Shown here one piece after another: positions 8,411 to 37,379 of a DNA stretch of 64,000 bases. The stretch comes from Lepisosteus oculatus (Eukaryota > Chordata > Actinopteri > Semionotiformes > Lepisosteidae), in the NCBI RefSeq assembly GCF_040954835.1, contig NW_027167685.1, positions 135,001-199,000 on the forward strand. Direction: 5' to 3'. The translations under genes and the position numbers were made by a program. The notes under the pieces are model-generated. The model saw nothing but the letters and a program-made list of their open reading frames with translations, ran no database searches and was not told where the DNA came from. The stretch's first letter is position 1; each line of letters starts with the position of its first letter.

Positions 8411-8441
<31 letters not shown>

Positions 8442-11727: not shown

Positions 11728-11977
11728 ATAGAACATGCACTTGCACTCCACCACAGAGAGCTCTACACTGCTACTAGTAGTACACTTCCCCATCTAAATT
11801 TTCACAGCAAGAAACTTGTGTTTCCTACTATTTTTATCAGGTTTAAAATATCATCTCCTTAAAACAGAAAAAGTGTTGATGTGTCGTGCTGAAATTCCGA
11901 TTGATTTTGAATTCAAAGAAAAAGGTTTTCTTCCAAAACACCATGAAATTGTCACATCTTGCAGACAATAGGTGTAT

Positions 11978-12602: not shown

Positions 12603-12676
12603 GGCGCTGTTCCCTAGTGGCTTAAAGTGCCCGCCTAGTAAGCAGGCGATCCTGGGTCTGAATACCAGCGGTGCCT
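12603..12676 (+). pseudogene. tRNA-Thr(AGT)-like degenerate copy
   Basis: The full 74-nt outline of tRNA-Thr is present, with anticodon loop CTAGTAA and ending CGGTGCC. The A box is damaged (GTTCCCTAGTGGCTTAAAG for GTGGCTTAGTTGGTTAAAG), and the T-loop reads GGTCTGAATAC. No strong T-run follows. It is probably inactive. Confidence 0.72.
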
Positions 12677-12781
12677 CTCTCCGTGTCTTGTTGTGCCGAA
12701 TGTATCATTTCAGACAAACATGTACAGCTTGGTTCAGTTTAATGCAAGAATTCATTTCCTTTCTGGAATAACTTGTTTTTG

Positions 12782-12946
12782 AAGAAATCCATACAGCTTG
12801 TGAAAGATGAAATCCATTTCTTGGTTGTCAGTGGAAAAAGATTGCCGGCTGCAAGAAGCGCAAGTGATTGTTTTCTTTGACCATAAACCTGCAAATGTAG
12901 GGAGCACAAGCGGCTGTCAGTCTCTGTGGCGCAATCGGTTGGCGCA

Positions 12947-12986
<40 letters not shown>

Positions 12987-13703: not shown

Positions 13704-13705
13704 GT

Positions 13706-14036
13706 CATGACCGCCAGGCAGTTAAGACCAACTCTTAAGCAATCTAAACAGCACCAGCAGCGGGTGATTATTAACAAACGCCGCCGCACGAGTTAACCCA
13801 CCTGCACACACTCCACCGTGCGGTACGCAGTGCTATTTTTACCATCTTTACCTGCTTCCCGCTGGTATTGAGTCTACTCCTTGAGAGCTCTACCTGGCGT
13901 TTTTTCCATTACCTCGTTTATTCTGGATATTGGACTCCCCTTCTGCCTTTTCGACTTTGGACCTCGCCTCTCACCTCGGACTGTTTGCCACCAGTGTTCT
14001 CCCTGGATTACGACTTACCTTACGCCTCTTGACCAC
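13706..14036 (+). repeat. LTR-like interspersed repeat (possible solo LTR)
   Basis: It begins TGTCATGACCGCCAG and is rich in C/T runs and GCC-GCACG motifs. It is related along its length to 29247-29660. No coding region accompanies either copy. The TG start and promoter-like composition suggest an old solo LTR, but terminal repeats of a parent were not seen, so the class is uncertain. Confidence 0.4.
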
Positions 14037-14359
14037 GAAACAAAGCAAAGCAGAGCAAAACAAAATGAACAAACGAAAACCCTCACGTCCCGCACTTGCA
14101 TATAACGCCGTTACGTGCCCAAACGGTATTGTACGTCATCCTAGCACTGCACCCCGGGGCGTACGGTATATGGGAACTAGCACACACCACGAATCGTCTC
14201 GAATCACTCCCTACAGCTGTAAGGCACCTTGAAGCATGCACCCCCAACATTCTTCTTTGCGCATTTGTGAAAGGTAAACTCTTGAGCAAACTCTGAACCA
14301 GCTCTAAGGAAACTAATCTGATTAGACGTTACTTTGACTCATCTTTTAAGGGACCCTTG

Positions 14360-14745
14360 TTAATTGGAGAAATCAATGATTTCGAATGAATTCTGTATGC
14401 GTTAAAAGACAGCTATACACAGAAAACATGCAGGACACTTCTCATGATGTTTCCCGAGCCAAAACACAGTGCGTTTTTCCAAGCCATCTGACAAAGCCCG
14501 CCCACTGAAAACTGCAGCAAATCGTGTAAAGACGTTCAACTTTGTAACTACTGCACGCACAGGAAGCAGAATAAATTCCTCTTTTCAAACTGTCAAAGGT
14601 TTGCTTTGCGAACACTGCAGGACATCGCACAATGTCTTTTGAACGGGGACAAACGATTTCTTATGGGGCACAGTAAGTACAGACGTTTAAAAAGCTCCAC
14701 TCATGCCGACGATGCAGCATGAAGAAGCGCAACCTAACGTTTGCA
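14360..14745 (+). repeat. Partial copy of the U4-linked spacer
   Basis: It matches 6395-6770 closely in the same orientation but stops before the U4 gene. The segment 14040-14320 before it matches 45410-45660, a tRNA-Ser flank. These are joined duplication fragments without a gene. Confidence 0.75.
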
Positions 14746-14819
14746 TTCCTAGCAAATTCCTTTTATTTTTTGATAAATAAAGACAGTCTTGTTTAACAAA
14801 CAACACACACAACATTTTA

Positions 14820-15838
14820 CATTGTCAATTCAATTCAAATCAATGTATTTCTATATAGCGCCTTTCACAACAAGGTTGTCCCAAGGCACTTAACAATGCA
14901 AGTTGTTAAGAGCCTTGTGTCTAATATGCCGCCTAGGTAACGTGCTGTCTCTTTGAGGCAAATGTTTAAATCCTCTGAGTTAAGTGCTGAAGTTATAGTA
15001 GTCCTATCAGTATTGTTGCCTCCGATCAACAGATCCTCATTTTTCTCAGAGTTGAGTAACAAAAAGTTTTCACACATCCAAGTATTTCCTTCCTTAATGC
15101 ATTTAACTAAACTGATAATAGAAGAGTTGTCGTTTGGTGTAAACAAAATGTTTATTTGAGTGTCATCAGCATATGAATGAAAGTTCATATTATTTTTTCA
15201 TATTATCCTACCTAGCAGCAGCATGTAGAGAGAGAGAGCAATATTGGTCCCAGCACTGATCTTCTGGTACCCCAAATTGAACTGGTGACATTGATGAAGC
15301 AGTACAATTATTAGATATTTGAACATAATGAAAACGATGAGTTAAATGTGAAGTAAACCACTGAAGGACGGTTCCAGATAAGCCAACCTCAAACTCAAGC
15401 CTGTGTAACAAAACAGAGAGGTCAACCGTGTCAAAGGCAGCTCTAAGATCTAGAAGCACAAGCACTGTTGCATTCCCCGCATCAGTAGCTAAGAGAATAT
15501 CATTTACGACTCTTGTTAATGCAGTTTCAGAAACCAGACTGAAATTTCTCAAGTATATTATTTGAATCCAGATACGATTGACGTTGGGCAACAACTATTC
15601 TCCCAAGACTTTTAGATTGAAATGGGACCTTTGAGACAGGCCTGTAGTTGTTAAGAACTTGTGGATCCAAATTTGACTTCTTAAGGAGCGGTCTAACAAC
15701 CACTACCTTAAATTGATCAGGTACAACGCCTGACGCAAGCGATGCATTCATCATGCTAATTATAGGTCCTGCCAGTCCTTCGAGGGAATCTTTGACTAGC
15801 TGAGTGGGGATGGGATCTAGCGAACAGGTGGTTGACTT
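14820..15838 (-). mobile_element. L2/CR1-like LINE, reverse transcriptase part
   Basis: Three open stretches on the minus strand give consecutive reverse-transcriptase motifs: DPIPTQLVKD and NNYRPVSKVPF, then LDLRAAFDTVD and QFGVPED, then FHSYADDTQIN with a YLGGILD end. YADDTQI is typical of the L2/CR1 group in fish. The reading frame is broken at least twice. The 3' tail (ATAGCGCCTTTCACAACAAG) is the usual fish L2-like end. The element is cut at 15838 by a Tc1 fragment, so its endonuclease and ORF1 are missing. Confidence 0.82.
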
Positions 15839-16400
15839 TGTCTTACGTCTGTGTTCATGAGTCCACCATAAGAAGAAATCTGAACAGGAGTGGTGATCAT
15901 GCGAGGTCACCATGGAGGAAACCACTGCTCTCCCCCCCAAAAAAACCACCACTGCCCCTCTCAAGTTTGCTAAAGACCACATGGATGTTCCACAGCAACT
16001 CCTGGAACAATGTTCTGTGGACAGACGTGACAAAAGTTGAAAGTTAAAGGAGTACATCAACAACAGAGTGGCTGAAACAGAAGAAATTCCGTATTTTGGG
16101 ATGGCCAAGTAAGAGTCCTGACCCCAATCCCATTGAAGTACTGTGGCGTGATCTGAAGCAGGCCGTTCAGTGCAAGACATCCCAAAAATATACATGAACT
16201 GAAACAGTTTTTCATAGAGGAATAGGCCAAAATACCTCCTAACCGCTGCTCAGGTCTGACCAGCCGCTACAGAAAGTGGGGGTTGAGGTTTTTGTCATAA
16301 AGGAGGTTCCACTAGCTCCTTAATATAAGGGTTCACGTACTTTTTCCATCAATGACCTTGATTGTTTAAACCATTTGGTCAATAAAGAAACAGCAATGTC
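15838..16400 (+). mobile_element. Tc1/mariner transposon fragment
   Basis: The + strand resembles Tc1 transposase in three pieces: a helix region around HESTIRRNLNRSG, the stretch LKFAKDHMDVPQQ with a damaged ILWTDE counterpart, and the C-terminal WPSKSPDPNPIEVLWRDLK. The last carries the family's P-D-x-N-P-I-E catalytic context. An internal part is missing and the frame is broken. The end GGTTCACGTACTTTTTCC resembles a Tc1 terminal repeat. Confidence 0.78.
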
Positions 16401-16642
16401 AAATGTTGGGCGTGTGTTGTTTGTTAAATCACACTCTCTTTATTAATTATTATGACTTAGATAAAGATAAGATCACATGTTAGGAGCCATTCATGCAGAA
16501 ATCCACATCATTCCGAAGGGCTGTTTACAAAAGTTTTTCTCCCAACTGTATGTGAGAGAAAAGCAGAGACGCTCACTGAGTAAGGTGGGGTTGTAGCTTT
16601 GCAAATCACAAGGACATTTGTATGCTCAAAATGGGACAGGAG

Positions 16643-16715
16643 CACCCCAGATGGGACTCAAACCCACAATCCCTGGTTTAGGAGGCCAGTGCCTTATCCA
16701 TTAGGCCACTGGGGC
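16643..16715 (-). tRNA. tRNA-Arg (anticodon CCT)
   Basis: The reverse strand reads GCCCCAGTGGCCTAATGG, anticodon stem CTGGC with loop CTCCTAA (CCT), GGGATTGTGG, T-loop GGTTTGAGTCC and acceptor end CTGGGGTG, 73 nt. The T-loop and one T-stem pair deviate slightly, and anticodon-stem G is A (AAACCAG). It is likely functional or only mildly altered. Confidence 0.86.
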
Positions 16716-18564: not shown

Positions 18565-19324
18565 ACCGGGGTAAAGTTAGCTCGAAGTTCGAAAACGATT
18601 TTGGCACGCCTGTAGCGCTTTCACGAAACCTCTTAGAATTGCGAGAATGCTTGTTTTGTGTATAAAATACATTGTGGATGCTTTCTCAGCCTTTACTTTT
18701 TCGTTTTTATGACATTTTTTTGACCAAGCACGAATATTCTTTTGTCCATATCTTCGCAATGGAAGCACAGAACGCCGTCAAACCAAATGCATTTTAAAGA
18801 CCACGACTTGTGGATATTTCCACACCCTTTATATCAAACTATCAGTGAGCTAATTATCTTTTTTTAAACCTCCGGTTTTTCATCGATGCGTAATTACGCA
18901 CGAACTGGAACCCGGGGGACCGCTGTGTGCACACGTTCACAACGCGAGAAATACTGTTCAAATCGCTTCGTGCGAAAAACCCGTATATGACCATAGGAAG
19001 CAGAACAGCGCAGTCTCCCATTACCCAGACTGTAAGCACGGGAATAAAGCTTTGTTTGACTTCTGAAACCCTTCCTTTACGTCCTGTTTTCATTCAGGTA
19101 AGGGTCAACTATATTGAAAATACTACTGACAGCAGGAAGATTAAAATATTCTTTACTCAGCATCTTATTAAAAACAGCTCCCATGATGTTCAAACCGATT
19201 TTTTACACAGAACACTGACACAGCTTTGCATTCTGAATCTCTTTTTCTCATGCTTTTATTTAATATGGCACAATGCACTGGGATAGGGGTATTCTGTTCA
19301 CAAACCAATAGCATTTAAACCACA
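18565..19324 (+). repeat. Left terminal inverted repeat, unique part
   Basis: About 0.76 kb matches the complement of 36610-37379 at nearly every base, with a few substitutions near 18650 and 18830. It includes CACGCCTGTAGCGC and CGGGTTTTTCGCACGAAG-type stretches that are identical in both arms. No RNA gene is recognised in it. Confidence 0.88.
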
Positions 19325-21415
19325 GCACCCACAATGCTGCAAGTGTTTTGCACACTAAGCGGGTCCTCTGACTTTTCCCAGCTTTATTTTGGGTTGTGGA
19401 ACCTTTCTTTATATTTTTTAGGATTTTCTGAAGATAACACTACAGGTGGGATGGGTGGGTTGTCTTCATGGCTCAATAGCATTTCAAATACAGCACCCAC
19501 ACTGCTGAAACCAAGTGTTTTACACACCAGACAGGCCCCCGAACCTCATACAACCTTACTGTGGCTGTGGCCCCTGTCTTTATTTTGTAATGAGTTTCTG
19601 AAGATAACACTACAGGTAATACACTGGGACAGGTGGGTCGTCTTCATGGCTCAATAGCATTTCAAATACAGCACCCACTCTGCTGAAACCAAGTGTTTTA
19701 CACACCAGACAGGCCCCCAAACCTCATACAACCTTACTGTAGCTGTGGCCCCTTTCTTTAATTTTTTATGATTTTCTGAAGATTACACTACAGGTAATAC
19801 ACTGGGACGGGTGGGTCGTCTTCATGGCTCAATAGCATTTCAAATACAGCACCCACTCTGCTGAAACCAAGTGTTTTACACACCAGACAGGCCCCCAAAC
19901 CTCATACAACCTTACTGTAGCTGTGGCCCCTTTCTTTAATTTTTTATGATTTTCTGAAGATTACACTACAGGTAATACACTGGGACGGGTGGGTCGTCTT
20001 CATGGCTCAATAGCATTTCAAATACAGCACCCACTCTGCTGAAACCAAGTGTTTTACACACCAGACAGGCCCCCAAACCTCATACAACCTTACTGTAGCT
20101 GTGGTCCCTTTCTTTAATTTTTTATGATTTTCTGAAGATTACACTACAGGTAATACACTGGGACGGGTGGGTCGTCTTCATGGCTCAATAGCATTTCAAA
20201 TACAGCACCCACTCTGCTGAAACCAAGTGTTTTACACACCAGACAGGCCCCCAAACCTCATACAACCTTACTGTAGCTGTGGCCCCTTTCTTTAATTTTT
20301 TATGATTTTCTGAAGATTACACTACAGGTAATACACTGGGACGGGTGGGTCGTCTTCATGGCTCAATAGCATTTCAAATACAGCACCCACTCTGCTGAAA
20401 CCAAGTGTTTTACACACCAGACAGGCCCCCAAACCTCATACAACCTTACTGTAGCTGTGGCCCCTTTCTTTAATTTTTTATGATTTTCTGAAGATTACAC
20501 TACAGGTAATACACTGGGACGGGTGGGTCGTCTTCATGGCTCAATAGCATTTCAAATACAGCACCCACTCTGCTGAAACCAAGTGTTTTACACACCAGAC
20601 AGGCCCCCAAACCTCATACAACCTTACTGTAGCTGTGGCCCCTTTCTTTAATTTTTTATGATTTTCTGAAGATTACACTACAGGTAATACACTGGGACGG
20701 GTGGGTCGTCTTCATGGCTCAATAGCATTTCAAATACAGCACCCACTCTGCTGAAACCAAGTGTTTTACACACCAGACAGGCCCCCAAACCTCATACAAC
20801 CTTACTGTAGCTGTGGCCCATTTCTTTAATTTTTTATGATTTTCTGAAGATTACACTACAGGTAATACACTGGGACGGGTGGGTCGTCTTCATGGCTCAA
20901 TAGCATTTCAAATACAGCACCCACTCTGCTGAAACCAAGTGTTTTACACACCAGACAGGCCCCCAAACCTCATACAACCTTACTGTAGCTGTGGTCCCTT
21001 TCTTTAATTTTTTATGATTTTCTGAAGATTACACTACAGGTAATACACTGGGACGGGTGGGTCGTCTTCATGGCTCAATAGCATTTCAAATACAGCACCC
21101 ACTCTGCTGAAACCAAGTGTTTTACACACCAGACAGGCCCCCAAACCTCATACAACCTTACTGTAGCTGTGGCCCCTTTCTTTAATTTTTTATGATTTTC
21201 TGAAGATTACACTACAGGTAATACACTGGGACGGGTGGGTCGTCTTCATGGCTCAATAGCATTTCAAATACAGCACCCACTCTGCTGAAACCAAGTGTTT
21301 TACACACCAGACAGGCCCCCGAACCTCATACAACCTTACTGTGGCTGTGGCCCCTGTCTTTATTTTGTAATGAGTTTCTGAAGATAACACTACAGGTAAT
21401 ACACTGGGATAGGGG
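19325..21415 (+). repeat. 178-bp tandem array in the left arm
   Basis: The phrase GGGTCGTCTTCATGGCTC returns every 178 bp (for example 19801, 19979, 20157). There are about 11-12 units, most identical. A variant unit carrying TTTTGTAATGAGTTTCTG stands at the two ends (about 19580 and 21360), and the outermost unit is more diverged. The near identity of the inner units suggests recent expansion or homogenisation. Confidence 0.93.
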
Positions 21416-23498
21416 GGTGCTATTCATGAGTCAAAAGCTTCATCACAACATCTGAAAATTTTAGATTTTACATTCTTTTTATTTCCCATGTTTCGTTTAG
21501 TTTTTTCCTAATTTCACATTTTAAATAAGCTATATCTGTAATCACAATGAAGGTGTGGTATGCAGTCTTGATGATGTGACTGTGTAACCATCAGGCACGA
21601 AGGAGAGAAAAACAAAAAACTCCAAAGGAGAAAAAAAATCTCTGGGGGTCCAAGGCCTGATGGTTGACCTCCCCTCCAGGTCCTGGTTGTGTATGACAAA
21701 TAGTTACTAGAAACAGTTCACATGCACAACCATGCAGATTGACACGGTGAATTCTATTTCATATATTATGTGAGACTAGATGTTAATGTTGAGTGTGTCC
21801 CATCCACTGGGTTGAGCAGTACAGGATCTTGAGTTTTGTAGGCTGGGTTCCTTGCTTCAGAAATCCAGGAGGATCCCTTGTCATGGGGGACGGAGCTCAA
21901 TATCAACCAAAGGCACCGAAGAGAGAACAGTGGCAGGCATGGTGTGGAGAAAAAAAAAGGGTTAGACACAGAAAAAACAATTGCAACGTGGTTGTCTACT
22001 TACCCACTTGATATTTATGTTTCTGCACCTCCTAAAGAATTAGATCACTTGGGATAAAGAAGACTACAGAGACGATGTAGAAGACTACAGCATTGTTAAA
22101 TATGCTTGTAGGTATGGGGCATCCTTAAAAAGGTCTGACATATATTTCCACAATTTAGGGGCTGTGTGCCTAAATGCTCTGCTACGTGCTTGCTATTGTT
22201 AACATAATCTGTTCATTGATCTAGACAGCATCCTACAACTACCTTAACCTTACTGTAAGAAAAGTATCACTTTGGTGTCTAGGCTGTTCTTTTTCATGAG
22301 TCTCCACTCCTGGAGATGTACATGGTACGATATTGAAAGCCAGTGGGGTTCGGACTTCGATGATGCAATTGTGTTTTATTGTTCCGGTTAGAATCCTTTT
22401 AGCACTGTGCCCTGTCTGAAGGTAGATAGAGTACTGTTTTGGAAACCTAATAAAAAGGAATCACCCTAGATACACTTCTATTTGATAGAAGCCATTTTTC
22501 TTTGATCTTTCTCACAACGGAGTGGAATTTCTTGATTAATCTATCTTACTAGGATGGATACAATTTTATCTGGAAATCTTTCACATAAATCATGTCATGG
22601 TGACATACTGTCGTTTTACATTTCTTTGCACTACTACAGTGATGTTAACAGTGTGTAGTGATCATATTTAAAAGGGACTGTGTTGTGTCATGATTAACTT
22701 TTTTACTGTTTTCATACAGACTTTGTTTGGTTTCTGGCAATAGATAACAAATGGTTTCTAGTGATTTTGTGTTCTAGTGTTTTTCATTATTGTTTGGCAA
22801 AGTGTACGAAAGTTTACTCTTACCCAAGATAAAATTTTTGGGGGGATATTGAAACTTGTACTTACGTGTCTTTTGGAGGTGAATTCTGCTGAGAACACGT
22901 TGACAGTCTTCTTGAGTTTCCAGCATGTCTTTTATGTAATGCTCGGGAGTAGGGGGTGGATGCTCACTCATCAACAGTGCCTGAAATATAAAACCGTAAG
23001 AAGGGTTACGAACTGCAAAGGATCCAAGGAGTATAAATGGGTCACAAATCAAGATCTAGGTATTTGCACAATTTGCCAGATCTCTCTTAATCAAACTCCT
23101 TTTTTCTTACTTTGTGTTTTTACAGCAAGACGTTATATTGTTTCTGTGCTAAATGGCAAGCTCTTTTAGGTGTTCATGGTTGTGTCTTTGTTTCTATACT
23201 ATTGGAAAGAAACCTAGTAAGTGATTTGATGCATCCATGTCTAATCATTAATCTGACACAGTAATTCTATCTTTGAGATGCCTGTGTCATGTAATAAATT
23301 GCACAGATTATCAGTAATCTTTTATGTGTGCCTTCTTTGGTGTGTTTTTTGAAAAGTTATCTCTAATTTATAGAACCATTAATGCCAGAAGACAAGCCTG
23401 CAATCCAAACTTCTTAACAATAACAAACAATTATAACGTCCACTGAAATATGTCATCCTACTGTATGTTTCTGCTGAATCTAAAACTACATGTCCTGC
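21416..23498. other. Interior of the element, left side
   Basis: AT-rich, with no long reading frame on either strand. On the minus strand a stretch near 22865-22980 is open (ALLMSEHPPPTPEHYIKDM). It is bounded by a TTTCAG acceptor and a GTAAGT donor. It could be an alternative last exon of the Ulp1-PHD gene, or chance. Confidence 0.4.
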
Positions 23499-23826
23499 TT
23501 AAAAAACCCTTTCATAGTGATAGTTTGCATGCAGAGCATACTCACCAAACTGGGGTTGGCAAAATGTACATATCCATGTTACTTCATTCTTTGCGCTTTC
23601 ATACTCTTCTTTTGAGATGCACAATTCATGGAACCAGTTTTCACAACTGTCACACTGAATCTACACGGACAGTAAACCTTATATCAGTTCAGCTATCACC
23701 TTTCACTGGCATGTTTTGTTATTATGTGCTTACATTACACATACAGATAGAGATGATGTTCACTTACCCAGTTTGTCTGCCGCACTGGTGTTTCTCCACA
23801 CATCAGGCACATGTCCTGGAGAGGAG
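23499..23826 (-). CDS. PHD-finger exons of the transposon gene
   Basis: Two exons at 23768-23826 and 23499-23660 continue the Ulp1 exons in phase. Together they give a C4-H-C3 PHD finger: CLMC, then CDSC, WFHELC and a final CTFC after a W. PHD fingers read histone H3 tails, so the domain could guide the protein to chromatin; that role is inference. The last exon either runs to a stop at 23499 or splices at a GTGAGT donor (23546) to an exon near 22980, which would add only a few residues. The zinc ligands are complete and no damage is seen. Confidence 0.78.
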
Positions 23827-24358
23827 CTATAATAAACATGCCAAATAGACTGATTTTTCCAATGTTATCTACAGATCATTGTTGCATAATTGAAGACAGT
23901 TTGATAGAGACCTTTTCGTATGCACTTTCCTGATTAGGTGTTCTACTGCTTCTTAAACCGCACATTGTCATGTCTCAGAATACTCCTGTCAACACCTGTT
24001 ACCCTTTTTTGCGTCAGCGTGTGTTGCTATGATTTTAAGGGGGCACATGATAACACAGCTATCATGTTTCAGTTTGCTTTGCTTCACTATGGGCAATTTA
24101 GACCCACACTTTTCCCAGACAATGGTTGTGTCAACCACGACGAAGGCCAAAGTGTCATTGAATTTTAACTGTGTGAAATGTGATTTAATTAACTTTTCAT
24201 CACTGTGTTATATAGTACAAAAAGAATACCCAAATGAGTTCTGCATATAAATAAATTGAGAATCTTTTTCATCCAGACTTGTTACAGAGAGAGAACATGC
24301 TTCAGGAAAATAATATACACCAAGAAACGTAGGCAATGAGGATCAAATGGTACAATAC

Positions 24359-26088
24359 CTGAAGCCTCAAGAATTCTGATTGACAGGTCTTCCCGCAACT
24401 TTCTCATTTCTTTGGCACTGCTGTTTATTTCGATATATGTTGGAATATCCGGGAAATTGTTAATGATGTCTGCGCCCATCTAACAGACAAAAGTTTGTTT
24501 CAATTATTTCCCTAAAAATCTCTCATACAATAGTTTTAAGTCCAAAATTTCGGCGTGGAAAGGTTATGCTGACCTGCATCACAAAGACCCCACAGCTTGA
24601 GGCATCTGCTTGCCTGGTGTGACCAATCACGCTTGGGTGCCAGTTGATATTCAACCAGTCTTCTTTTCCTAGGACATTCCTTCGCATCTTAAAAAAGTCC
24701 CTGTGAATCAAAACAATAGGTTATTGATAAATGAGGAAATATTTGTCATGCTGAACTTGAACCTGAAATGTATGTGTGCCCCTGCAGAATTTCACCACGA
24801 AACTAATGCTTGATTTCTTACCTGAACCTTTTTGCCGCTGCAGTGGAGTCTCCCATCTCATCACTCCCCATAGGGTCGACCACAAAGACTTTCTGGGATG
24901 GAGCATACAGATACTGCAAGAAACAAAGGGCCCATCATCAGACATGAAGTTGCATTTAACGTGGGGCCAGACACACAGGCAGTTTCAGGAGTTTTATGTT
25001 GTTTAAACAAAGGTTTTTAATATTTGAATATTTTATATATATAATATTTATATTTATATATTATTTAACATTTAATATTTTGCAAACCTCGGCAAAGACA
25101 GTCAGGAAATGACCTAACAGTACTTTTTTTCCTACATGACACTTTGACTTGTTTGGTTGTCTGTTCATTACACAGCAGTATTCACAATAATAATTTAGGA
25201 AAAGTGCACTGTCACCATTGCCTTGGACACTCACTATCAATGTCCACCTTTTTTAACAGGAGAGGAACACATACATTGTGACTTTGTAATTTTTTTAGAT
25301 GCAACAAGGATAATCACTTGAACTGTAATGGTTCCAGGTGTAATTATAAACCTACGCTGTTTTGGATTACCTGCACCACACTTACCAACAATTTCCAGTG
25401 GACACCAGTGTTAAAAAAGCTAATAATGGCTTCATAGTTTTCAAAGTTGACCTGTAATGAAAAGAATGACAAGATTAGTACAACAGGCTGCCTCACAGGG
25501 ATGGTGTGCTACCTTTGAATTTTGATTTCTGACTATAAAGGTAGTTTCTTTAGGCAGCACCATGGGCACAGTTGTGACCTGTTTTGATTGCTTGTAGCTC
25601 TCCTTGTTTCTCTATTGATAAAACAATCATCAGTTAGTGAAAAACCATGTTTGCCCCCTCACTAATGTAATCCATCAACATTTGTGTTTGATGTCCTTAC
25701 CTTGGACAAACGTTGTCTAGCCATGCGCTCTCTATTCCCACTCATGATTACACCAGTTGTGTAGTGGTTCATTAGGAAAACCTTCTTCCCCAAGTCCATG
25801 GATTCTTTCGCTACTTGAAAGTAACACTCAATGGTCTTATGGAAAAAGCAAACACAATTGAAGAAGATGTGATTTCACGCACTCACACACATTTGATTAC
25901 ACAAAAGCTCAGAAACCTTAACAAATGCATGCAATCAAACACTTTCATCTTACCTCGCCTATGAGCCACTCATCTGGTTTCAGAGACACAAACTCCGAGT
26001 GTCTGAGAATATATGTGTCTGCACTGTGCATGGATGGCAAAACTGCAACCACTAATTCACTCGGATTGATGTTCCAAAGGGCGTGTAC
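24359..26088 (-). CDS. Ulp1-type cysteine protease exons
   Basis: Six exons are supported by AG/GT borders and matching phases: 25954-26088, 25701-25835, 25386-25451, 24822-24913, 24574-24700 and 24359-24479. They translate to a C48 (Ulp1/SENP) peptidase core: PDEWLIGE and MNHYTTGVI, then the catalytic His in NTGVHWKLL, the Asp in FVVDPMGSDE, and the Gln and Cys in RQADASSCGVFVMQ. The H-W, D and Q..C motifs are all present and in the usual order. Family members cut SUMO or related modifiers. The exons follow the transposase exon without a phase break, so they most likely encode one protein. Confidence 0.85.
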
Positions 26089-26311
26089 CTAAAAAAGATT
26101 TACCAAGCCAAAAGCATACACAAGAGATCACTGGACCTAACATAATGAAAATTGAGATTACACACCACAAGTATAACACAAGTATGTCAACAAGTATAAC
26201 AAGTTAGAGAGAAACGACAAAGAACACCTACAGTAGTAGAAGATGACATTCATAAGCTCTGAAAAAGAAGTGAATGTCCACACAGAGAAATATTTGAAAT
26301 ACAAATCCTAC

Positions 26312-29050
26312 CTTCTTTTTGAAATCTGTTTTCTCTTTTATAAGTTTTGAGATGGGGCGTGCATCACAGTGTGGTGTGATCACTTCAGCCATGCCCACGG
26401 CAGCTTGCTTGGGTGACACTTTCCTTTCTTCTTTGTGCTGCCATTCTTTATATTCTGTGGTTCCTGCTTTCCCCTGCTGTACTTGCAGGCCGTTGCTGTC
26501 ATCTGGCGATTTTTCATTTGTTTCAATATTTCTATTGCTAACTTTTTTTTCCTGTGTTCTCATTTTTTTGGGGATTGGAATTTTCTGTGGTGCGCTGTAG
26601 AATTTATTTTTTGTTTCTTTGCCTACACCTGGTGCTCTCTTTGCCCATTGTTCCTGTGCATGTTCATGACGTGTCTTAGTGGTGATCAATGGAGCCGTCA
26701 AAACCTTTTTGGGGAGAGCATTTTGGATTATATGTTCTCTGTACCGGCCTTGGAGGGATTGTCTCATTATCGTAATAAACTCTGCTGGCCTCAGTTTCCT
26801 CCTGTGCTGAAGTATTGAATGCTTGACAATGCCAAACCAGGTCTCAACATGACAATTAGTGGCTCTTGTTTGTGCCACCTCTGACATTGATATGTCTTTT
26901 TTGCTGTCTGAAGCATATCTTGCCAGGTCACCCAACAAAATTCCACTCCACAGTGGAAATAGTGCCATGTATCTTTGCAACAGAAATCTTATTATGTCTT
27001 CACAGAAATAGGGGTTCACATTGTGTTGTGTCCCATAGTCATCATGTCCTTGAGCTGATATGCTGTCTTCATAAATACCTTTGAACTCCACAGCGAAAGG
27101 AGAGCGGCCCAGGCTGCCTCTCATTTTTGGGTACAGTACCTCATCTGTGTCTTTGACTTCTGCTTCCTTTTCCATCTGGTCTGGTGTGGTTGTTTGAGAA
27201 ATGTAAGCGTTAAGGAGGCAGACACTAGATTGGACTTCATTTGTGAACCTCCTGCTTGAGAGTACAATACACATGTGTTTGAAAACATTTCTGGCGACAC
27301 TCAAAGTTGTGCTGTTTTGCAGGATGGCAAAGGAAAATGTTGCAAAGTCTCGCAGTCCTTTGTCTGTTGTTTTTTTACTAATTGCTTGAGAGACAGCCTT
27401 TATGACATGGGCAGAGCAAAGGTGCAGAACAGTGAACATCTGAAGTTCTGTGTACTTAAGTTTGCCTTGGCAGACTTTCATTGCACGATTTAAGTATGCA
27501 TGGATGGTGTCCCCATTGAAGGCAAAAAGAACACTGTGAATCAGGGCCCAGCTGTAGTCAGTTTCTACATGCTGCACTCTCTTGGTAGTACATGTTGAGA
27601 TGTCAAACATGAATTTCCGTAGCCAACGTTCTATACTGACAATGGTGTGGTCAGTTGTCAACATTTCAGACACTGGTAATGGAGGCTTTCTTTTTCCACC
27701 TCCAGGTAACGTAAGACTGTAGTACAAAATTCTTTTGTTCTCCGATGGAATTTTTCTGACTACCCCTCCTGTTGCATCCAGGTAAAGGCTGACTTTCTCC
27801 TTCATCTTTAGATGGGCAATAAGAATTCGCATACTCTGTTCTGTGTAAAGATAGGCAGCAAATGTGTCTAACTGCAAAATCTGTATATATCCTGGGAAAT
27901 GGACAATGTCGAAGTCGCATGCTTTCATATATTTTTGTGCCATATGTAATTCAAACACTGGATCATAGTGAATGCGTTTACTGTTCCTGAACTCTGATGA
28001 AATGACTTTCAGGACATTCTGTGTTAGTGGTTTAGATAAATTGCCTGCTGCAATTTCAGCAAGCGGTGTTCTGCTCAGGTTCCTGTAGTACACATTGCTG
28101 ATTCCTTTTGTGAGGGCACGGGCAATCTTTCGACGATAAGGCTGACGTGCTTGTCGAAATTTTGTTTCCCTTTTACTGTGCTGTATTTGCCCTGCTCGTA
28201 CAACATCAATTGTGATGTCATCATTGCCCATTGGTTTGTGTCTTGTTGTCATAATGTATTTTACATTGCAGGACCTGAAGGTACAGACTGCTTTTATCAT
28301 CAGAAAGTTTTTTTTTTTTCTGCTGTTCTCTTTCCTGATGTATTGGTATTTGAAGGCTATTGGGCAACAAGGATTTATCTTCCTGAACTCGTTATATAAG
28401 ATCTGGGTCCATGGTCGTCTTAGTTTAGATGTACCTTTTAGAGGTGCTATTTTTCTCCATTGTTCAGCCTTTAAACATACTTGGAAAGTTTTAGGCACAG
28501 ACATAATCTTTCTTAATACCCTTTTATCCTGAGGTGATGTCCCAGATGAGCTTGCCCCCTGGGAATATTCACTGTGCTCTTCAGGCTTTTTTTCTGATTC
28601 TACACAGATTTTTTCTCCCTCTAACATGTCACCACTGTCTGTGCTGCCGTGTGCTGCCCATGCATCTTCTGTATCTTCTGATGAACTTCTGAGCTCTGTG
28701 TTGCCTTCCAAACTATGTCCCTCACTTTGACTTGAAATATTGACTATAGATTGTGTACTGTCATCTGGTTTGGAATCCCTACCAATACTCTCCTCTTTCT
28801 GCGCCCTAAGCACTTTGGTTCTTAGTTGTTTTCTATCTTCATGCCAAATCACTGATAACCATTTCTTGTTGCTGGGGCATTCCTCTCCAAGGAGTCTGTT
28901 TGACAGTGTTGACCACATACTGTCATTCCACCTAATTTTTTTTTCGAGTTTAGAAAACTTCAGAAATTCGTTGATCACATTCCCTACTCCACCAGCCCTT
29001 GACCACAGGTCTGGCCTTCTACTCCTCTGTCCTCCTTTAACATGTGACAT
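26312..29050 (-). CDS. DDE transposase, first coding exon (913 codons)
   Basis: I start at MSHVKGGQRSRRPDLW (29050) because a TTTTTCAG acceptor lies just before it; the frame is open 23 codons further upstream. Residues count from this M. About 1-190 is charged and Ser-rich. About 255-300 has a C-x4-C segment like the zinc-binding region of MULE-type transposases. The RNase H-like core follows: D425 in SLYLDATGG, D498 in VETDYSWALIHS, an HLCSAH pair (C545, H548) and E736 in NCHVETWFGIVK. This D-D-C/H-E spacing fits the MULE/hAT/KDZ class. A lysine-rich tail ends at a GTAGGA donor (26311), and the next exon is in phase. No stop or frameshift is seen. Likely role: cutting and joining the element's ends in the nucleus. 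Confidence 0.85.
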
Positions 29051-29246
29051 TGCCAGCAATCTGAAAAATAGAGAACATATCTGAATGGACTGGAAACATA
29101 ATTGAAATTCAATGCCCAATGGATGTTAATAGTGTAGGAGCGCAACAGATGTACAAGTCCATTAAATGGTTTTAGTTCTGTGTTTAATTTTACGGGCCCT
29201 ATATTTTGATATAGCATCAATCACAAAACAGCATTCTGTCACTGTC

Positions 29247-29660
29247 ACAACCACCAGCTAGCGGAGAATAACTCACAAAAGAACTAACCACTACCAGCAG
29301 CGGGTTAATTATAACAAGCACCGCCGCACGTGTTAATCCATCAGCACACACTCTACTGTGCGGCAAGCAGCACAATTTTAACCATCCAAACCCTCGGTAT
29401 TGAGTCTTCTCTTTGAGAGCTCTACCTCGCGTTTACTCTAAATCTCGCTTACTGGTTACTGATCTCCCTTTTGCCTCTCGACCTTGGGCCTTGCCTTCTG
29501 TTTCGGATTGTTTGCTTCTCTCTGTACTTCCTGGATTTTGATCTACCTTTCGCCGATCGACTATGATCTTGCCTGACGTTTCGGATTGTTCTCTTGTCTC
29601 AATAACTACTTGCTCCTGCGTCTGCACAGGATCTGCATACCTTTTCACTGAGGATTCCTG
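29247..29660 (+). repeat. LTR-like interspersed repeat (possible solo LTR)
   Basis: It is related along its length to 13706-14036: GCAGCGGGTTAATTA, CACCGCCGCACG, GAGAGCTCTACCT and several C/T-rich phrases. It begins TGTCACAACC. It sits between the transposase gene and the right arm. No internal coding region accompanies it. The class is uncertain. Confidence 0.4.
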
Positions 29661-29811
29661 GCAGCCACCACATAAAAAAAAACTAGAAAAGAAGTATGTG
29701 TTTCTTTTAAAAAAATGTTTTTAAAGAAGTCAACATATCTGGGTTGTGTTTGCAAGATTTTTAAAAATTGCAAAGTTTTTGTGGGTATGATTGTAAAAAA
29801 TCAAATCATAA

Positions 29812-29885
29812 CTGAAGAAGGCTCCATGGTCAAAACATTGTGTTTTCTTTCTTCTCTTTTCAGCATGGAATAAATCTGATTACTG
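29812..29885 (+). repeat. CTTTTCAGCATG family fragment
   Basis: GAAGAAGGCTCCATGGTC followed by AAACATTGTG..CTTTTCAGCATGGAATAAA is one half of the foldback repeat family seen in full at 31441-31625. Confidence 0.55.
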
Positions 29886-30150
29886 TATTGACCATATACA
29901 TTTTCTTGCATTAGGACTTCATATTCTGCATACCTCAGCTTGCTCTCCATGAGACACACAGACAGGGAGAAAAGCTGGGAGTCAGAGCACAGGGTCTGCC
30001 ATTGTACAGCACCCCTGGAGCAGCTGGGATTAAAGGCCTTACTCAGGGGCTCAACAGAGTAGGATTCCTCTGTCAACCATGGGATGTGAACCAGCAACCT
30101 TCCAGCCACCGGTGCAGATCCTGAGCCACAGAGCCACTCCTCCGCCTATT
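29885..30150 (-). mobile_element. tRNA-derived SINE
   Basis: On the reverse strand it opens with AGTGGCTCTGTGGCTCAGGA (A-box-like) and GGTTGCTGGTTCACATCCC (B-box-like). These are the two Pol III promoter boxes of a tRNA-derived SINE. They are followed by AGGCCTTTAATCCCAGCTGC and a longer body. I recognise this as a repeat common in ray-finned fish. It is somewhat diverged. Confidence 0.65.
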
Positions 30151-31440
30151 GTGCCAATTCTTTAAAATTTGTCCAAAAAGATGCAATTTTGAAAAAAAAA
30201 AACTGTTGTAAATAACATCAGTGGCTATTGAAAAGTACATAGAAAAAAAGAGACAAGTTAATAAACTTGGAATGACTACTTACAGCTCTGGAAAGATCGA
30301 AGATAGTGTTTCAGGTTGTTGTCCTTTAATTGATCCTCAACCAAAACAGAAATCCTCAACAGTCGAACAAGTCCATGTGATGAAAACCCTTATGCTCTTT
30401 AAATGGTTTTTAATGGATTGTGCATCTGTACTTAATTTTTTTCCACTCATAAGCTTTTGGATGAGAGATTCTGACCACTGTATAAGATCAGAAGCAACAG
30501 AAAAAACAGGCCTCTTTTCTGCTTATTTAACACACTCCTAATGCAAACAACACATTATGAATACAATGGAAAGGTTGCACCCAATGGGATCAAGCAGCTT
30601 AAAACATATGTTCTGGGGACAGGAAAGTTGTTATAGAGATAAATGGTATTCATGAAACAAATTATGTAGCAAAAAACTTTGCCAAAAGTCACAACCCATT
30701 TAACATATGTCTGACAGGTTAAATGAGTTTGATATCTCTTAGGTTTGAAATGCACTCCAACGGCTGTATGATGCAAGCTCAAGAGTCAAAAGAACAGTAG
30801 TGAACTACAGTTCTTACAATTATAACAAGCAGCCGTGTGCTCTTGTGAATGATCTACATCATACACCCTTACAGACTTGGAAGTTTGCACAGTTTGTAGT
30901 CTTTCTAATTCAAAATTGGTTAAGTGTGAAATAGACGGAATGGTTTAAATAACCAGACAAAACAAATAGTAACAAACATTCCTTACCTTGGTCTTACATG
31001 GCACAGTTTGTTTATTTCAGGCTTTACTTTTTACTTTTAAATCCCTTCTAAACGAAACATGTCCCATAACTCCCTATGTACAGGGTGAGGCCTATTTATA
31101 ATTTAACTTAATCTTTAAGTTGTTAATTCCTTACAGGAGCAAGCAGCTTGGAGCATGCGTTCTCAGCACTCCACGTGCCACATAGAGAAAGGAAAACTTT
31201 TTAATGGTGTTCATGTACATTACAGCTACATGAGTTAAGCTTTTGAAGGCTGATTTGTAGAGAGGTAAAAACAAATTAAACTGGTTCATGACAGTTCAAG
31301 AGAAAATTTTTATATTAAACTCTCTCTCAGATATCAGAGTATGCCAGTTTGACTGCTGTAAAAGTATTAAAAAAATAACAATACCTCTTGGTTATATTAT
31401 ATTGCGAAACCCAAGTGTAACTAATATTTAACAAGTAATA
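30151..31440. other. AT-rich interior, no gene seen
   Basis: Short open frames of up to about 106 residues occur on both strands. None has recognisable motifs, splice context or repeated conservation. It is treated as non-coding interior of the 18.8-kb element. Confidence 0.4.
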
Positions 31441-31625
31441 GTTTAATTCCATGCTGAAAAGAGAAGAAAGAAAACAAAGTTTCGGCCATGGAGCCTTCTT
31501 CAACTGTAACCCTTGAAGAAGGCTCCACAGCCAAAATGTTGTGTTTTCTTTCTTCTCTTTTCAGCATGGAATTAAACTATTACGTGATCCTTTGCAGCCT
31601 ACACCTGCTGACACAGCTAGCCATC
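31441..31625. repeat. Foldback repeat, nearly complete palindrome
   Basis: TTCCATGCTGAAAAGAGAAG at the left is the inverse of CTTCTCTTTTCAGCATGGAA at the right. The inner part GGCCATGGAGCCTTCTTC also faces its complement GAAGAAGGCTCCACAGCC. The arms are about 55-60 bp with a spacer of roughly 15 bp. It fits a MITE-like or foldback element. Single arms are scattered elsewhere in the window. Confidence 0.7.
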
Positions 31626-32059
31626 TGAACTAATATTCAACAGGTTCCACTCACATAGAGATTCAAAAATGCTTTATTATCATGACTGTTAAATCACAGA
31701 GTTGCCAAGGCCAATACAACATCCAAAAACATCCACAAAGAAAATACAACATAAGCAGATATTCTGCTACAGATTATTGTCTATGTGGCATTCTAGTTTG
31801 TGTTATGTTTGTGTACTCCTGTGGTTTTATAAGTGATTTTTCTAGTTTTTTTCTGTGCTGTGGTAGATTTAGAAGTGTGTTATTTTTGTTGTGCTATACT
31901 TCCTCCTCTGTATGCAATTGCATTTGACCTCAAGTACAGGCAGCAAAGCTATTATCAAACTTTGGTTTTGATCTTAACATCATCAGAGGGGTTACTGATT
32001 TCTGAACAGACTTAGAGTGTGAAAGTCAACAATGTATTATCCAACAACAGGTATTGTTT

Positions 32060-32320
32060 TACTGGTTCCCCCAAGGATGCATATTGTCTCCGTTACTCTT
32101 TGTCCTGTAAGCAAACACCCTCAAGAGCTCTCACCACTCCAGACACTTAATAAAATTTGCAGACGACTCTGTCATTGTTTGTCTGCTGCAAGTAAATGAG
32201 TGTAGCTATGGACATGTCAGATGAGTATGATAGGAGGTGTGAAGAAAACTTCCTGAAGACAAATGTGTCCAACATCAAAGAAATGATAACAGGTTTCTGG
32301 AAAAAACCCATACCCCCACC
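32060..32320 (+). mobile_element. LINE reverse-transcriptase fragment
   Basis: TGGTTCCCCCAAGGATGCAT translates to a (G)SPQGCILSPLLFVL motif, and about 90 bp further the same strand gives LIKFADDSVIVCL, the F-A-D-D active site of a non-LTR reverse transcriptase. The text breaks down soon after. It is a short, old fragment; the clade cannot be fixed. Confidence 0.6.
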
Positions 32321-32339
32321 CAAACCTAAAGGGGGAGAG

Positions 32340-35220
32340 AATTAGCTGAGGTGGTAGGAAAAAAAATTAGTAGTTGTGAAATGTTCTGAACCCTAAGTGA
32401 AATTTCAAAACAACTTAAAAAAACAGGTCCAATGTGGACATGATCCTCACAAAAGGACAAAATTGTCTTTATTATAAAGGCAACTTAAGCATTGTAATGT
32501 TAATGATTCATTGTTGATCTTCTCCTATCGGTCCTTCCTCAATTTGTTTTAATTTTCACTCTGATGTGTGGTTTGGAAATTTCAAGAACCAACTGGGTTG
32601 TCTTGTGAAATTATGTCCGTCTATTGTTCACTTGTTCTGCGTACAGCAAAATACATCTGTAACGAATCTTCACACCCCTTGTCTAACTAGTTCCAAGTTC
32701 CAACCAACTACAAAACCAATAGATTAAAATTCTGATTCATAGCTGCAGCCATTTCCTTACTTCATACTTGATTTCTGGGCTATTTTTTATATGCATGTTA
32801 TTGGTAATTTATGTATGTTATTGTTATTGTAGACAGTAGTTAGTACATCACATTCAAACACTTTAAAAAACAACCTTAGGCCTTCAAGGCTTGAAAATAT
32901 AGAGCTCTAAAATATTGGAATTATTTGAAGACAATATCAGGAGTGCAAGTGGCAGGAAAGAGATGAGCACAACATGTATTCTTATATTATTTAGTATGTT
33001 GTTTAAGAATAAAATAAACTGTGGGAAGACTGCAATAACAGCAATAGTACAATAAAAGATGAGAATAACAGTGGAAAAAAAATTACAGGATTACTAAAAA
33101 ATAAGGAACTTAAAATGCAATCCAACATCAGACAATACTGATAACAGGGAAGAAAGTGCAAGAGACTCAACAGCTGAGGAGAAGGGGAAAATATCACATT
33201 GAGATAAATAAGGAAAAATGGGTCACAGGAAAAAATTAAATCAAAGAGCAAAAGGGAAAAACATGGAAAAGCCAGCAGAAATTCTAGCACCAGCACAAAA
33301 ATAAGGGGACAAAACAGAAAGAATACAAAACAACTGAACAAAGGAACAAGACATGGAAGAAAAGAAAGCCCATGCATTCATGAACCTACACCAAAGAAAA
33401 GATAAAAATAGCTTATCTCCACAAAGAGTTAAAACCCATCGTAACCATAAATACTGTAGGGAAAAAAAGTCCCTAGAAAAGCTGTGTCCTGTTTTCTCTG
33501 GTTATCTCACCTTTTGGAAAGGGTGATTGTATGCAAAACATTAATGCTAAAACCTGTTTACATATACTGTATCTACCTTCCTGCCTGGGCAGATGGCAGA
33601 TCCACCACATTCACTTCTGTCAGACCTACCCTTGTAATCCATTACCATGAAAAACTCAAATCAGCCCAGGTCTGGAAACAATGCAAAAGGAGACATACTG
33701 TATGGAGAGAGGACCCAGAATCCCCCCTGTAGTAGACTGCTACTGGGCAAGGGGTAAAAAAAATAGAAAACCAACCTATTCCTTTTTTAAAAAAACCCTA
33801 GAAGCAGGCACACAGGCGAGCTCAATTTCTAACAACACATAAGCAAAAGAGGCATCTATAAGGGCAGGTGACTGGAGATCTCAATAAGAGTCAACACAAA
33901 CACAAATGATACAAAAACCAACACAGTCTTCCTAAAATAATTTATGTAAGTATTTTCAAACCGCTTATACTTTCTGAGTACGCTAAAAAAAATCAGTTGT
34001 GGACTGTACCTCTTACCCCACATTGAAAGTTTGTATATTTGTTATTTGTTCAAAATAGAGCCTATTGCTTTTTAGAAATCAAAGACACAGGTCACTATTT
34101 TTCTGTTCATTTAAAGTGTGTGTTGAGTGCGTATGTGGTCAGATATGTGCCAGCTTCATATGAAGTCGATCTGACTTCTATTCAGGACACTGTATTTGGC
34201 AAGCTGCCAGTAATAGGGTATTGAAGATACTGGTGAATAGCTAGCCCAGGTTACTGTTCACACAAATGCTCCGGCAGTTGTTAGGGTCAGGTGATCAGTC
34301 CTGGATTCCAGGCCAAAGGAAAACATCCGTACTTCAGGATGGGGTTGAGTATTTTAAACTAGGCTCATCACTAGGCTCATGCAGTTATGTCACATGATGT
34401 GGCTGTTTACCCTGTCTACGCCACAGGCCTTTTGTAGTTTAAGGGTATGGAGTTAGTATACTTGCTCCAGCTTTGTGTTTGGGAAATCCAAGGGATATTG
34501 GTTGTTTTTTATAGACAATTCAACAATGTTCTGTTTTTAAGACTTTGTACCATACACCGATCCGCCCCGGAGACCCAAGTGATTCTGGTTTAGGTAAGCC
34601 AAGGGACAATGATCTTCACGTTACCAGGGGGACAGTGGGTGGACAAGTCTCCCCTAAACAATGTATCTTGTCAGATTATGATGTCAGTCCGTTTAATAAT
34701 GTTGTTGAACTCCCTTCAGCCAAAATACAGAGGAGCCCAGGCCCAGAATGTTACACATACTGACAGAAAGTGATCTCATTATGTGTGTCATGATGGTGCT
34801 GTCTGGCTGTCCTGCTGGTCTGGATGAGGGGTGCGTAGTGTGGTGCAGGTACTTGTCCCATCCTGCTCTTGGTCCAGGTTGGAGGGTTGCACCGATTCTG
34901 AGTCTTGTTAGCTGGTATGGATTGGTTTGGGGGTGTTGATACCAGAGTGGTCCAAGAGGGGGGTGCAGATGTCTCGGGGGCATTCTTGTTTTTCTATGAC
35001 TTCACGTTGATTCTGTTGGTTCTGAGTGTCTTGGTTACATACGCTTGTGTGTATAGATGAAAAAGCTATTGAAGAGCACCTCATTCATCTCGGTGGAAGT
35101 TCCCATGTTCAAAAAATCCTAAAAAGAGAATTAAAGTTTCACACAACAAAGCATGACTGTGAAAGGTCAGGAGGCCTGACACTTGCACAAATGCACAACA
35201 CTTGATTACAGTCAAAAAAT
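32340..35220. other. AT-rich interior, no gene seen
   Basis: No motif-bearing reading frame is visible on either strand. The minus-strand frame at 33003-33377 is only a low-complexity Phe/Leu/Ser run. The last part borders the right-arm array. Confidence 0.4.
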
Positions 35221-35221
35221 C

Positions 35222-36600
35222 ATGAAGCCATGAAGACGACCCACCTGTCCCAGTGTATTACCTGTAGTGTAATCTTCAGAAAATCATAAAAAATTAAAGA
35301 AAGGGGCCACAGCTACAGTAAGGTTGTATGAGGTTTGGGGGCCTGTCTGGTGTGTAAAACACTTGGTTTCAGCAGAGTGGGTGCTGTATTTGAAATGCTA
35401 TTGAGCCATGAAGACGACCCACCCGTCCCAGTGTATTACCTGTAGTGTAATCTTCAGAAAATCATAAAAAATTAAAGAAATGGGCCACAGCTACAGTAAG
35501 GTTGTATGAGGTTTGGGGGCCTGTCTGGTGTGTAAAACACTTGGTTTCAGCAGAGTGGGTGCTGTATTTGAAATGCTATTGAGCCATGAAGACGACCCAC
35601 CCGTCCCAGTGTATTACCTGTAGTGTAATCTTCAGAAAATCATAAAAAATTAAAGAAAGGGGCCACAGCTACAGTAAGGTTGTATGAGGTTTGGGGGCCT
35701 GTCTGGTGTGTAAAACACTTGGTTTCAGCAGAGTGGGTGCTGTATTTGAAATGCTATTGAGCCATGAAGACGACCCACCCGTCCCAGTGTATTACCTGTA
35801 GTGTAATCTTCAGAAAATCATAAAAAATTAAAGAAATGGGCCACAGCTACAGTAAGGTTGTATGAGGTTTGGGGGCCTGTCTGGTGTGTAAAACACTTGG
35901 TTTCAGCAGAGTGGGTGCTGTATTTGAAATGCTATTGAGCCATGAAGACGACCCACCTGTCCCAGTGTATTACCTGTAGTGTTATCTTCAGAAACTCATT
36001 ACAAAATAAAGACAGGGGCCACAGCCACAGTAAGGTTGTATGAGGTTCGGGGGCCTGTCTGGTGTGTAAAACACTTGGTTTCAGCAGTGTGGGTGCTGTA
36101 TTTGAAATGCTATTGAGCCATGAAGACGACCCACCCGTCCCAGTGTATTACCTGTAGTGTAATCTTCAGAAAATCATAAAAAATTAAAGAAAGGGGCCAC
36201 AGCTACAGTAAGGTTGTATGAGGTTTGGGGGCCTGTCTGGTGTGTAAAACACTTGGTTTCAGCAGAGTGGGTGCTGTATTTGAAATGCTATTGAGCCATG
36301 AAGACGACCCACCTGTCCCAGTGTATTACCTGTAGTGTTATCTTCAGAAACTCATTACAAAATAAAGACAGGGGCCACAGCCACAGTAAGGTTGTATGAG
36401 GTTCGGGGGCCTGTCTGGTGTGTAAAACACTTGGTTTCAGCAGTGTGGGTGCTGTATTTGAAATGCTATTGAGCCATGAAGATGACCCACCTGTCCCAGT
36501 GTATTACCTGTAGTGTTATCTTCAGAAAATCCTAAAAAATATAAAGAAAGGTTCCACAACCCAAAACAAAGCTGGGAAAAGTCAGAGTGTGCAAAACACT
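35222..36600 (-). repeat. 178-bp tandem array in the right arm
   Basis: The inverse of the left-arm unit (GAGCCATGAAGACGACCCAC) returns about every 178 bp in about 7-8 copies, against 11-12 in the left arm. The variant unit with CTCATTACAAAATAAAGAC appears at about 35990 and 36350, scattered among the standard units. In the left arm it stands only at the ends. Confidence 0.93.
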
Positions 36601-37379
36601 TGCAGCATTGTGGGTGCTGTGGTTTAAATGCTATTGGTTTGTGAACAGAATACCCCTATCCCAGTGCATTGTGCCATATTAAATAAAAGCATGAGAAAAA
36701 GAGATTCAGAATGCAAAGCTGTGTCAGTGTTCTGTGTAAAAAATCGGTTTGAACATCATGGGAGCTGTTTTTAATAAGCTGCTGAGTAAAGAATATTTTA
36801 ATCTTCCTGCTGTCAGTAGTATTGTGAATATAGTTGACCCTTACCTGAATGAAAACAGGGCGTAAAGGAAGGGTTTCAGAAATCAAACAAAGCTTTATTC
36901 CCGTGCTTACAGTCTGGGTAATGGGAGACTGCGCTGTTCTGCTTCCTATGGTCATATACGGGTTTTTCGCACGAAGCCGTATTGAACAGTATTTCTCGCG
37001 TTGTGAACGTGTGCACACAGCGGTCCCCCGGGTTCCAGTTCGTGCGTAATTACGCATCGATGAAAAACCGGAGGTTTAAAAAAAGATAATTAGCTCACTG
37101 ATAGTTTGATGTAAAGAGTGTGGAAATATCCACAAGTCGTGGTCTTTAAAATGCATTTGGTTTGACGGCGTTCTGTGCTTCCATTGCGAAGATATGGAAC
37201 AAAAGAATATTCGTGCTTGGTCAAAAAAATGTCATAAAAACGAAAAAGTAAAGGCTGAGAAAGCATCCACAATGTATTTTATACACAAAACAAGCATTCT
37301 CGCAACTCTAAGAGGTTTCGTGAAAGCGCTACAGGCGTGCCAAAATCGTTTTCGAACTTCGAGCTAACTTTACCCCGGT
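36601..37379 (-). repeat. Right terminal inverted repeat, unique part
   Basis: This is the inverse of 18565-19330. It ends GAGCTAACTTTACCCCGGT. The base after it (37380) begins the U4-linked spacer CTGCAATGCTTTC, whose intact relative is at about 6150-6170 inverted. Confidence 0.88.

Follow-up and report, generated by a model that had tools for sequence, protein, structure and literature searches.

The stretch of Lepisosteus oculatus DNA analyzed here, a window of 64,000 nucleotides from assembly GCF_040954835.1 (NW_027167685.1:135,001-199,000) whose own positions serve as coordinates throughout, holds a transposon with one spliced gene, in which a DDE transposase, a Ulp1 (C48) protease and a PHD finger are predicted to be joined in a single intact frame. 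The gene runs on the minus strand from 29050 to 23499 in nine coding exons (Table 1). An earlier note on this DNA had described a transposase exon of 913 codons that ends at a phase-0 GTAGGA donor, followed by eight exons with fitting phases, and both the coordinates and the phases are borne out: the spliced frame comprises 1211 residues, and its sole stop is the terminal TAA ending at 23499. The exons are numbered 1-3 and 5-10, number 4 having belonged to a segment at 25611-25513 that was dropped; the note was right to omit it, since it is missing from the ten homologues with which the C-terminal part was aligned, and its model is to be preferred.

Comparison with 34 proteins by tblastn supports most of these exons, with exons 1, 2, 3, 6, 7 and 8 being matched by 33, 12, 14, 1, 12 and 3 of them, respectively. 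The short exons 5, 9 and 10 drew no tblastn match from the 34 proteins; they are supported by spliced alignment and by a diverged copy of the element on contig C16. This C16 copy is broken, yet it is 92.9% identical to the window over 3.1 kb with the exon matches present, and across exons 2-10, the range that the splice-site comparison covered (without the exon-1 donor), its eight AG acceptors and seven GT donors are intact. Over the same exons, the two copies differ at 12/298, 6/299 and 27/299 sites at codon positions 1, 2 and 3, an excess at position 3 over positions 1 and 2 that is significant (Fisher p 2.5e-4). Exons including the tail of exon 1 (52 differences in 1085 sites) and introns (107 in 1836) show no significant gap in divergence (p 0.27); hence the support from conservation comes from codon position. 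In another copy, on C18, the transposase exon alone was recognized in a 10-kb stretch.

A GT donor of good quality lies inside exon 10 at 23545, so that an alternative short tail is possible. Just downstream of the gene, at 22980-22866 on the minus strand, lies a stretch that looks like an exon (MSEHPPPTPEHYIKDML...); it has an ATG of its own, well-formed borders and no Pfam match. A scan for a second gene in the element, which covered unspliced open reading frames (8 of the 77 listed), gave a single Pfam line at E 0.073, far below the cut-off.

A search with the exon-1 protein retrieved 29 proteins, among them the one encoded by the window itself (P0001), and all of the named organisms are bony fish. 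Residues 1-1192 of the predicted protein align in one piece with Gymnodraco acuticeps LOC117541546 isoform X2 (39% identity, E 0), in which C48 and PHD both score above their cut-offs. The same order of transposase, protease and finger is found in Misgurnus (P0014), Megalobrama (P0018), Astyanax (P0031) and Pimephales (P0032), with Pfam scores below cut-off for PHD in P0014 and P0018 and for C48 in P0032. These proteins bear directly on the reading that two adjacent genes lie here, a transposase gene that stops shortly past 26312 and a separate Ulp1-PHD gene behind it. The fusion is predicted from genomic sequence, and many of the 29 relatives have neither C48 nor PHD and end near the end of the transposase; some of these short relatives, however, lie on contigs only a few kilobases long. 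Moreover, five fish proteins hold all three parts in one frame, the joint of exons 1 and 2 aligns with fish proteins, and the frame of exon 2 continues that of exon 1. We therefore regard two separate genes as fairly unlikely.

In tilapia (Oreochromis) the protein P0034 (A0A669CZJ1) is 24% identical in its transposase part and 44% identical to the Ulp1-PHD part in its C-terminal part, and between the two lies a Macro domain (E 2.6e-31); Pfam gives PHD for this protein and no C48 up to E 5. From the architecture of P0033 and P0034 (Oreochromis) it follows that two or more diverged branches of transposases have the Ulp1-PHD module attached to them. In the cluster of P0033, one database name stems from a ferret record, which is probably a contamination. 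A distant relative from a JGI source (P0028, 29%) has a weak PHD-like finger before its transposase rather than behind it.

Profile searches confirmed the two C-terminal domains that the earlier note had recognized. With a C-terminal query that still contained the 33-residue segment 25611-25513, Pfam reported PHD at E 5.3e-8 and Peptidase_C48 at E 1.2e-4, both exceeding the curated cut-offs. The Ulp1 residues His, Asp, Gln and Cys follow in the order that had been claimed, and the finger has its full set of Cys4-His-Cys3 zinc ligands. Exon 1 matched no Pfam family up to E 1 in this single-sequence test. Against PDB sequences exon 1 gave one chance match only, a PHROGs comparison yielded no useful match, and a wider profile search returned mostly the same set of fish proteins and no named superfamily. 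The predicted fold of a homologue matches ISCth4, a transposase of the IS256 type, as well as the SUMO protease SENP2; an RNase H-fold match and a C48 match, on whose absence the note would have abandoned its reading, were thus found in that fold and in Pfam. Of the 50 PDB matches listed for the fold, ISCth4 alone is a transposase; that no hAT, P or RAG transposase appears in those 50 excludes none of them. The homologue's model has a helical insertion in its DDE core, best matched by the IS256 type, and it confirms the order of the triad and of CxxH, which in the window protein correspond to D425, D498, C545xxH548 and E736; its protease part has the Ulp1 fold.

Conservation was counted in 38 relatives (P0001 and P0029 left out, gaps uncounted). 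The first Asp of the triad is present in 35/35 and the second in 34/34, CxxH in 31/31 and the Glu in 29/31. For the protease the counts are 10/11 (His), 13/14 (Asp), 12/16 (Gln) and 12/12 (Cys), and for the eight PHD ligands, in order, 10/13, 14/14, 12/12, 8/9, 9/12, 8/9, 7/9 and 7/9. Among solved structures, the PHD finger of the Astyanax protein is closest by sequence to that of TAF3 (E 2.5e-4), a protein that reads methylated histone H3.

The gene is enclosed by two inverted copies of about 2 kb, the outer ends of which both begin ACCGGGGTAAAGTTAGCTCG. The left flank of the element is a unit of a transfer RNA (tRNA)-Ser array and the right flank a unit of a U4 small nuclear RNA (snRNA) array, and the two flanks of the window copy share no target duplication. 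Inside the element, at 31432-31586 and 29813-29877, there is a short palindromic repeat that is also present near 8531, 12045 and 13046; it is likely a small nested transposon.

Table 1. Features of the transposon and its gene (positions in the window)
Feature	Position	Strand	Remarks
Whole transposon, 18,815 bp	18565..37379	.	Self-comparison and end alignment
Left terminal inverted repeat, outer end 5'-ACCGGGGTAAAGTTAGCTCGAAGTTCG	18565..21438	+	2115/2165 aligned bases identical to right repeat
Minisatellite, 178 bp, 11.4 copies, inner part of left repeat	19395..21409	.	
Exon 10 (last), PHD finger C1161, C1164, H1169, C1172, C1189, C1192	23499..23660	-	Phase 0-end, TAA
Exon 9, PHD finger C1145, C1148	23768..23826	-	Phase 1-0
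Exon 8, end of Ulp1 part	24359..24479	-	Phase 0-1
Exon 7, Ulp1 Gln1086 and Cys1092	24574..24700	-	Phase 2-0
Exon 6, Ulp1 catalytic Asp1038	24822..24913	-	Phase 0-2
Exon 5 (4th coding exon), Ulp1 catalytic His1021	25386..25451	-	Phase 0-0
Open 33-codon segment with splice-like borders, probably intron	25513..25611	-	No counterpart in ten aligned homologues
Exon 3, Ulp1 part	25701..25835	-	Phase 0-0
Exon 2, start of Ulp1 part	25954..26088	-	Phase 0-0
Exon 1, transposase	26312..29050	-	Zinc-finger-like C256x4C261..H291; D425, D498, C545xxH548, E736
Right terminal inverted repeat	35226..37379	-	Self-comparison and end alignment
Minisatellite, 178 bp, 7.5 copies, inner part of right repeat	35226..36558	.	

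Other copies, which the earlier note had proposed to look for, exist in the same genome. In the assembly (1.2 Gb, 813 contigs) exon 1 has at least 64 matches, from the 50 of 303 candidates that were scored, and 52 of them lie on the 60-Mb contig C14. At least 14 are full-length at 100% identity (rounded), and 12 of these 14 have no stop. The outer 400 bases of the terminal repeat gave at least 41 matches (the 40 best of 2228 candidates), the counts of ends being lower bounds. Pairing of the ends by position resulted in 18 pairs, the window's included, with the interior read for some of them; for four ends (L047, L055, L056 and L057) a partner was sought and not found, and seven (L018 and L032-L037) were left unpaired.

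Judged by eye, three of the 18 pairs have exact target duplications of 8, 9 and 9 bp (ACGGGCTG; GTCGATAGT; TTAGAGCGG) and two more have a 9-bp duplication with one mismatch, while the other 13, among them the window's, have none. Among these 13, the pairs on C638, C68, C44 and C701 share both flanks and are duplicates of one event, and two pairs on C14 are mutually inverted duplicates. The absent duplications would be accounted for if the long repeats had since undergone exchange with each other, or if exchange had taken place within the arrays. At L017 (G000:C14:53955964-53957396), one of the 13, a stretch of only 1.4 kb has both outer ends and no matching duplication; it is perhaps a short non-autonomous derivative. 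The loci L002 and L007, which belong to pairs whose exact duplications differ, are identical at 5734 of 5739 positions (99.9%), introns included, from which recent movement follows. The L002 copy encodes a complete protein with two differences. One further end, L035 (G000:C14:52544803), by eye adjoins apparent spliced exons of a gene of the egg-coat type.

These copies also bear on whether the gene could have been domesticated, its Ulp1-PHD part now serving the host. Such a role would suit the intact frame and the bias of differences toward third codon positions, but it is hardly credible for a sequence that has moved recently, is flanked by inverted repeats, shows target duplications and is present in 14 or more nearly identical copies of full length. 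Nor do we favor the KDZ/Zisupton-type element that the earlier note had in mind. That link was drawn from the occurrence of Ulp1-like domains near such transposases; word searches of the literature returned nothing linking Zisupton with Ulp1, or KDZ with Ulp1 and PHD. Pfam holds a KDZ transposase model, and exon 1 has no Pfam match up to E 1; CxxH, the IS256-type insertion, 8-9-bp duplications and long minisatellite-bearing repeats fit the Mutator side instead, and a KDZ affiliation is accordingly very improbable.

We consider, with a probability of roughly 0.73, that the window contains a nearly complete, recently mobile and autonomous fish transposon of a Mutator/Rehavkus-like kind, whose one spliced gene encodes the 1211-residue transposase-Ulp1-PHD protein. 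Its placement on the Mutator/Rehavkus side is suggested by CxxH, the IS256-type helical insertion, the 8-9-bp duplications and the long inverted repeats with minisatellites. The known systems are compared below as excerpts of the cited papers describe them. Mutator-like elements (MULEs) make target duplications of 8-11 bp, mostly 9, and many of them, not all, have long terminal inverted repeats. The window family has such repeats, a C/DxxH motif after the second Asp, and duplications of 8-9 bp in 5/18 pairs; the motif itself is common to hAT, P, Kolobok and Dada (PMC3706591). It resembles MULEs and bacterial IS256 in the CxxH of its DDE core, in the length of its inverted repeats and of its duplications and, by the homologue's model, in the helical insertion, and differs from them in that exon 1 has no Pfam match. 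Ulp1 domains have been reported for Mutator elements from hydra, lancelet and plants (PMC2836005).

By anatomy, the best fit is with Rehavkus, an outgroup or sister of MULEs that has a PHD finger, a minisatellite beside the inverted repeat and 9-bp duplications (PMC6446971). All of these features recur here: a PHD finger (C-terminal in this case), a minisatellite by the terminal repeat, which lies at both ends inside the inverted repeats, and a 9-bp duplication in 4/18 pairs, two of them exact. In Rehavkus-1_TC of Tribolium, the inverted ends carry units of 164 bp in tandem, in most cases five and eight of them (PMC10218199), much like the 178-bp repeats of the window. In contrast, the described Rehavkus elements have arthropod and annelid hosts, repeats of 26-400 bp and, in Tribolium, a length of 9.5 kb, whereas the window element has a fish host, 2-kb repeats, a length of 18.8 kb and in addition a Ulp1 domain, which the excerpts do not mention for Rehavkus.

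The fusion of the three domains is less novel than the earlier note supposed. In addition to the Ulp1-bearing Mutator transposases mentioned above, one transposase of Hydra, Ginger1-9_HM, has C-terminal Ulp1 and PHD domains (PMC2836005 Table 1) and so, like the window protein, unites DDE, Ulp1 and PHD; when the literature was searched for the words transposase, Ulp1, PHD and Mutator together, that paper was the only relevant result. Unlike the window element, Ginger1-9_HM has a Gypsy-integrase-like core, the 4-bp CCGG-type duplications of its group, a length of 3.8 kb and 120-bp repeats. The 8-9-bp duplications and the lack of any integrase profile from Pfam speak against membership in Ginger1. 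Since DDE with Ulp1 and PHD, and PHD with a minisatellite, are each already known, the window element is a variant of these combinations.

The RNA-gene surroundings prompt a comparison with the Dada superfamily, of which the element would be a divergent member inserting into tRNA or snRNA genes. The window has 23 Rfam matches, with many tRNA, U4 and U5 genes, the element lies between tRNA and U4 arrays, and the duplication of one copy is at the start of a sequence that by eye resembles tRNA-Arg. Dada elements likewise have large spliced genes, belong to the same DDE group and occur in fish RNA-gene arrays (PMC3706591, PMC8869645), and zebrafish Dada-U6 encodes 1402 residues in 11 exons, with N- and C-terminal zinc fingers and a core of the C/DxxH class (PMC3706591). 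However, Dada is described with DxxH, no terminal inverted repeats and 6-7-bp duplications inside RNA genes (PMC3706591), against CxxH in 31/31 relatives, 2-kb inverted repeats and 8-9-bp duplications here. A tRNA, 5S or U4 gene was found within 1.5 kb outside the element at 10 of 20 flank loci (of 30), as compared with 57% of 1.5-kb pieces taken at random from the remainder of the window beyond the element, a control drawn from the window's single contig; there is therefore no sign of targeting beyond the setting, and insertion targeting of RNA genes was rejected. We accordingly judge a Dada affiliation quite unlikely and keep to the Mutator/Rehavkus-like assignment.

The predicted functions of such a protein would be end binding, cut-and-paste, SUMO removal and chromatin docking. 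Its N-terminal Cys-Cys..His finger could, together with the many 178-bp subrepeats, form a multi-site system of end recognition, and the DDE core would move the element by cut-and-paste, with the two strands of the target cut 8-9 bp apart. SUMO might be removed by the SENP-like protease, either from the transposase or from proteins with which the host carries out silencing or repair at the ends, and the PHD finger might dock the complex on a histone-tail state, thereby influencing the choice of target chromatin or the continued expression of the element. More speculatively, ray-finned fish might harbor a living vertebrate branch of Rehavkus/Mutator that has gained a SUMO-protease and histone-reader module (plus, in tilapia, an ADP-ribose Macro domain), and that counters silencing and settles in an RNA-gene-rich, probably repressed chromosome. 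The settling is suggested by the concentration of exon-1 matches on one 60-Mb contig (52 of the 64 obtained from the 50 of 303 candidates that were scored), and C14 presumably resembles the RNA-gene-rich chromosome 4 of zebrafish; a literature word search found nothing joining MuDR, zebrafish and chromosome 4. The whole of this scenario is tentative, and we would put it well below even odds.

A survey of 2019 confirmed no vertebrate MULE and, as excerpted, left their true absence from vertebrates as a question; the zebrafish MuDR entries of Repbase could not be aligned to MULEs in it (PMC6446971). The window family may be one of these MuDR entries. With an intact, recently moved candidate that has defined ends, duplications and a full-length protein, the question of vertebrate MULEs becomes testable. 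The fusion would also be a natural case of a transposase equipped with a SUMO protease and a histone reader of its own, in which the part of such domains in transposon anti-silencing or target choice could be studied.

Beyond the element, the window contains duplicated tRNA/U4/U5 arrays at 1-16715 and 44980-61744, in which the units 620-3910 and 47318-50611 are 95.5% identical. Its plus strand has two long open frames, of 523 and 714 residues, at 50624-54556, on the right-hand side of the element.

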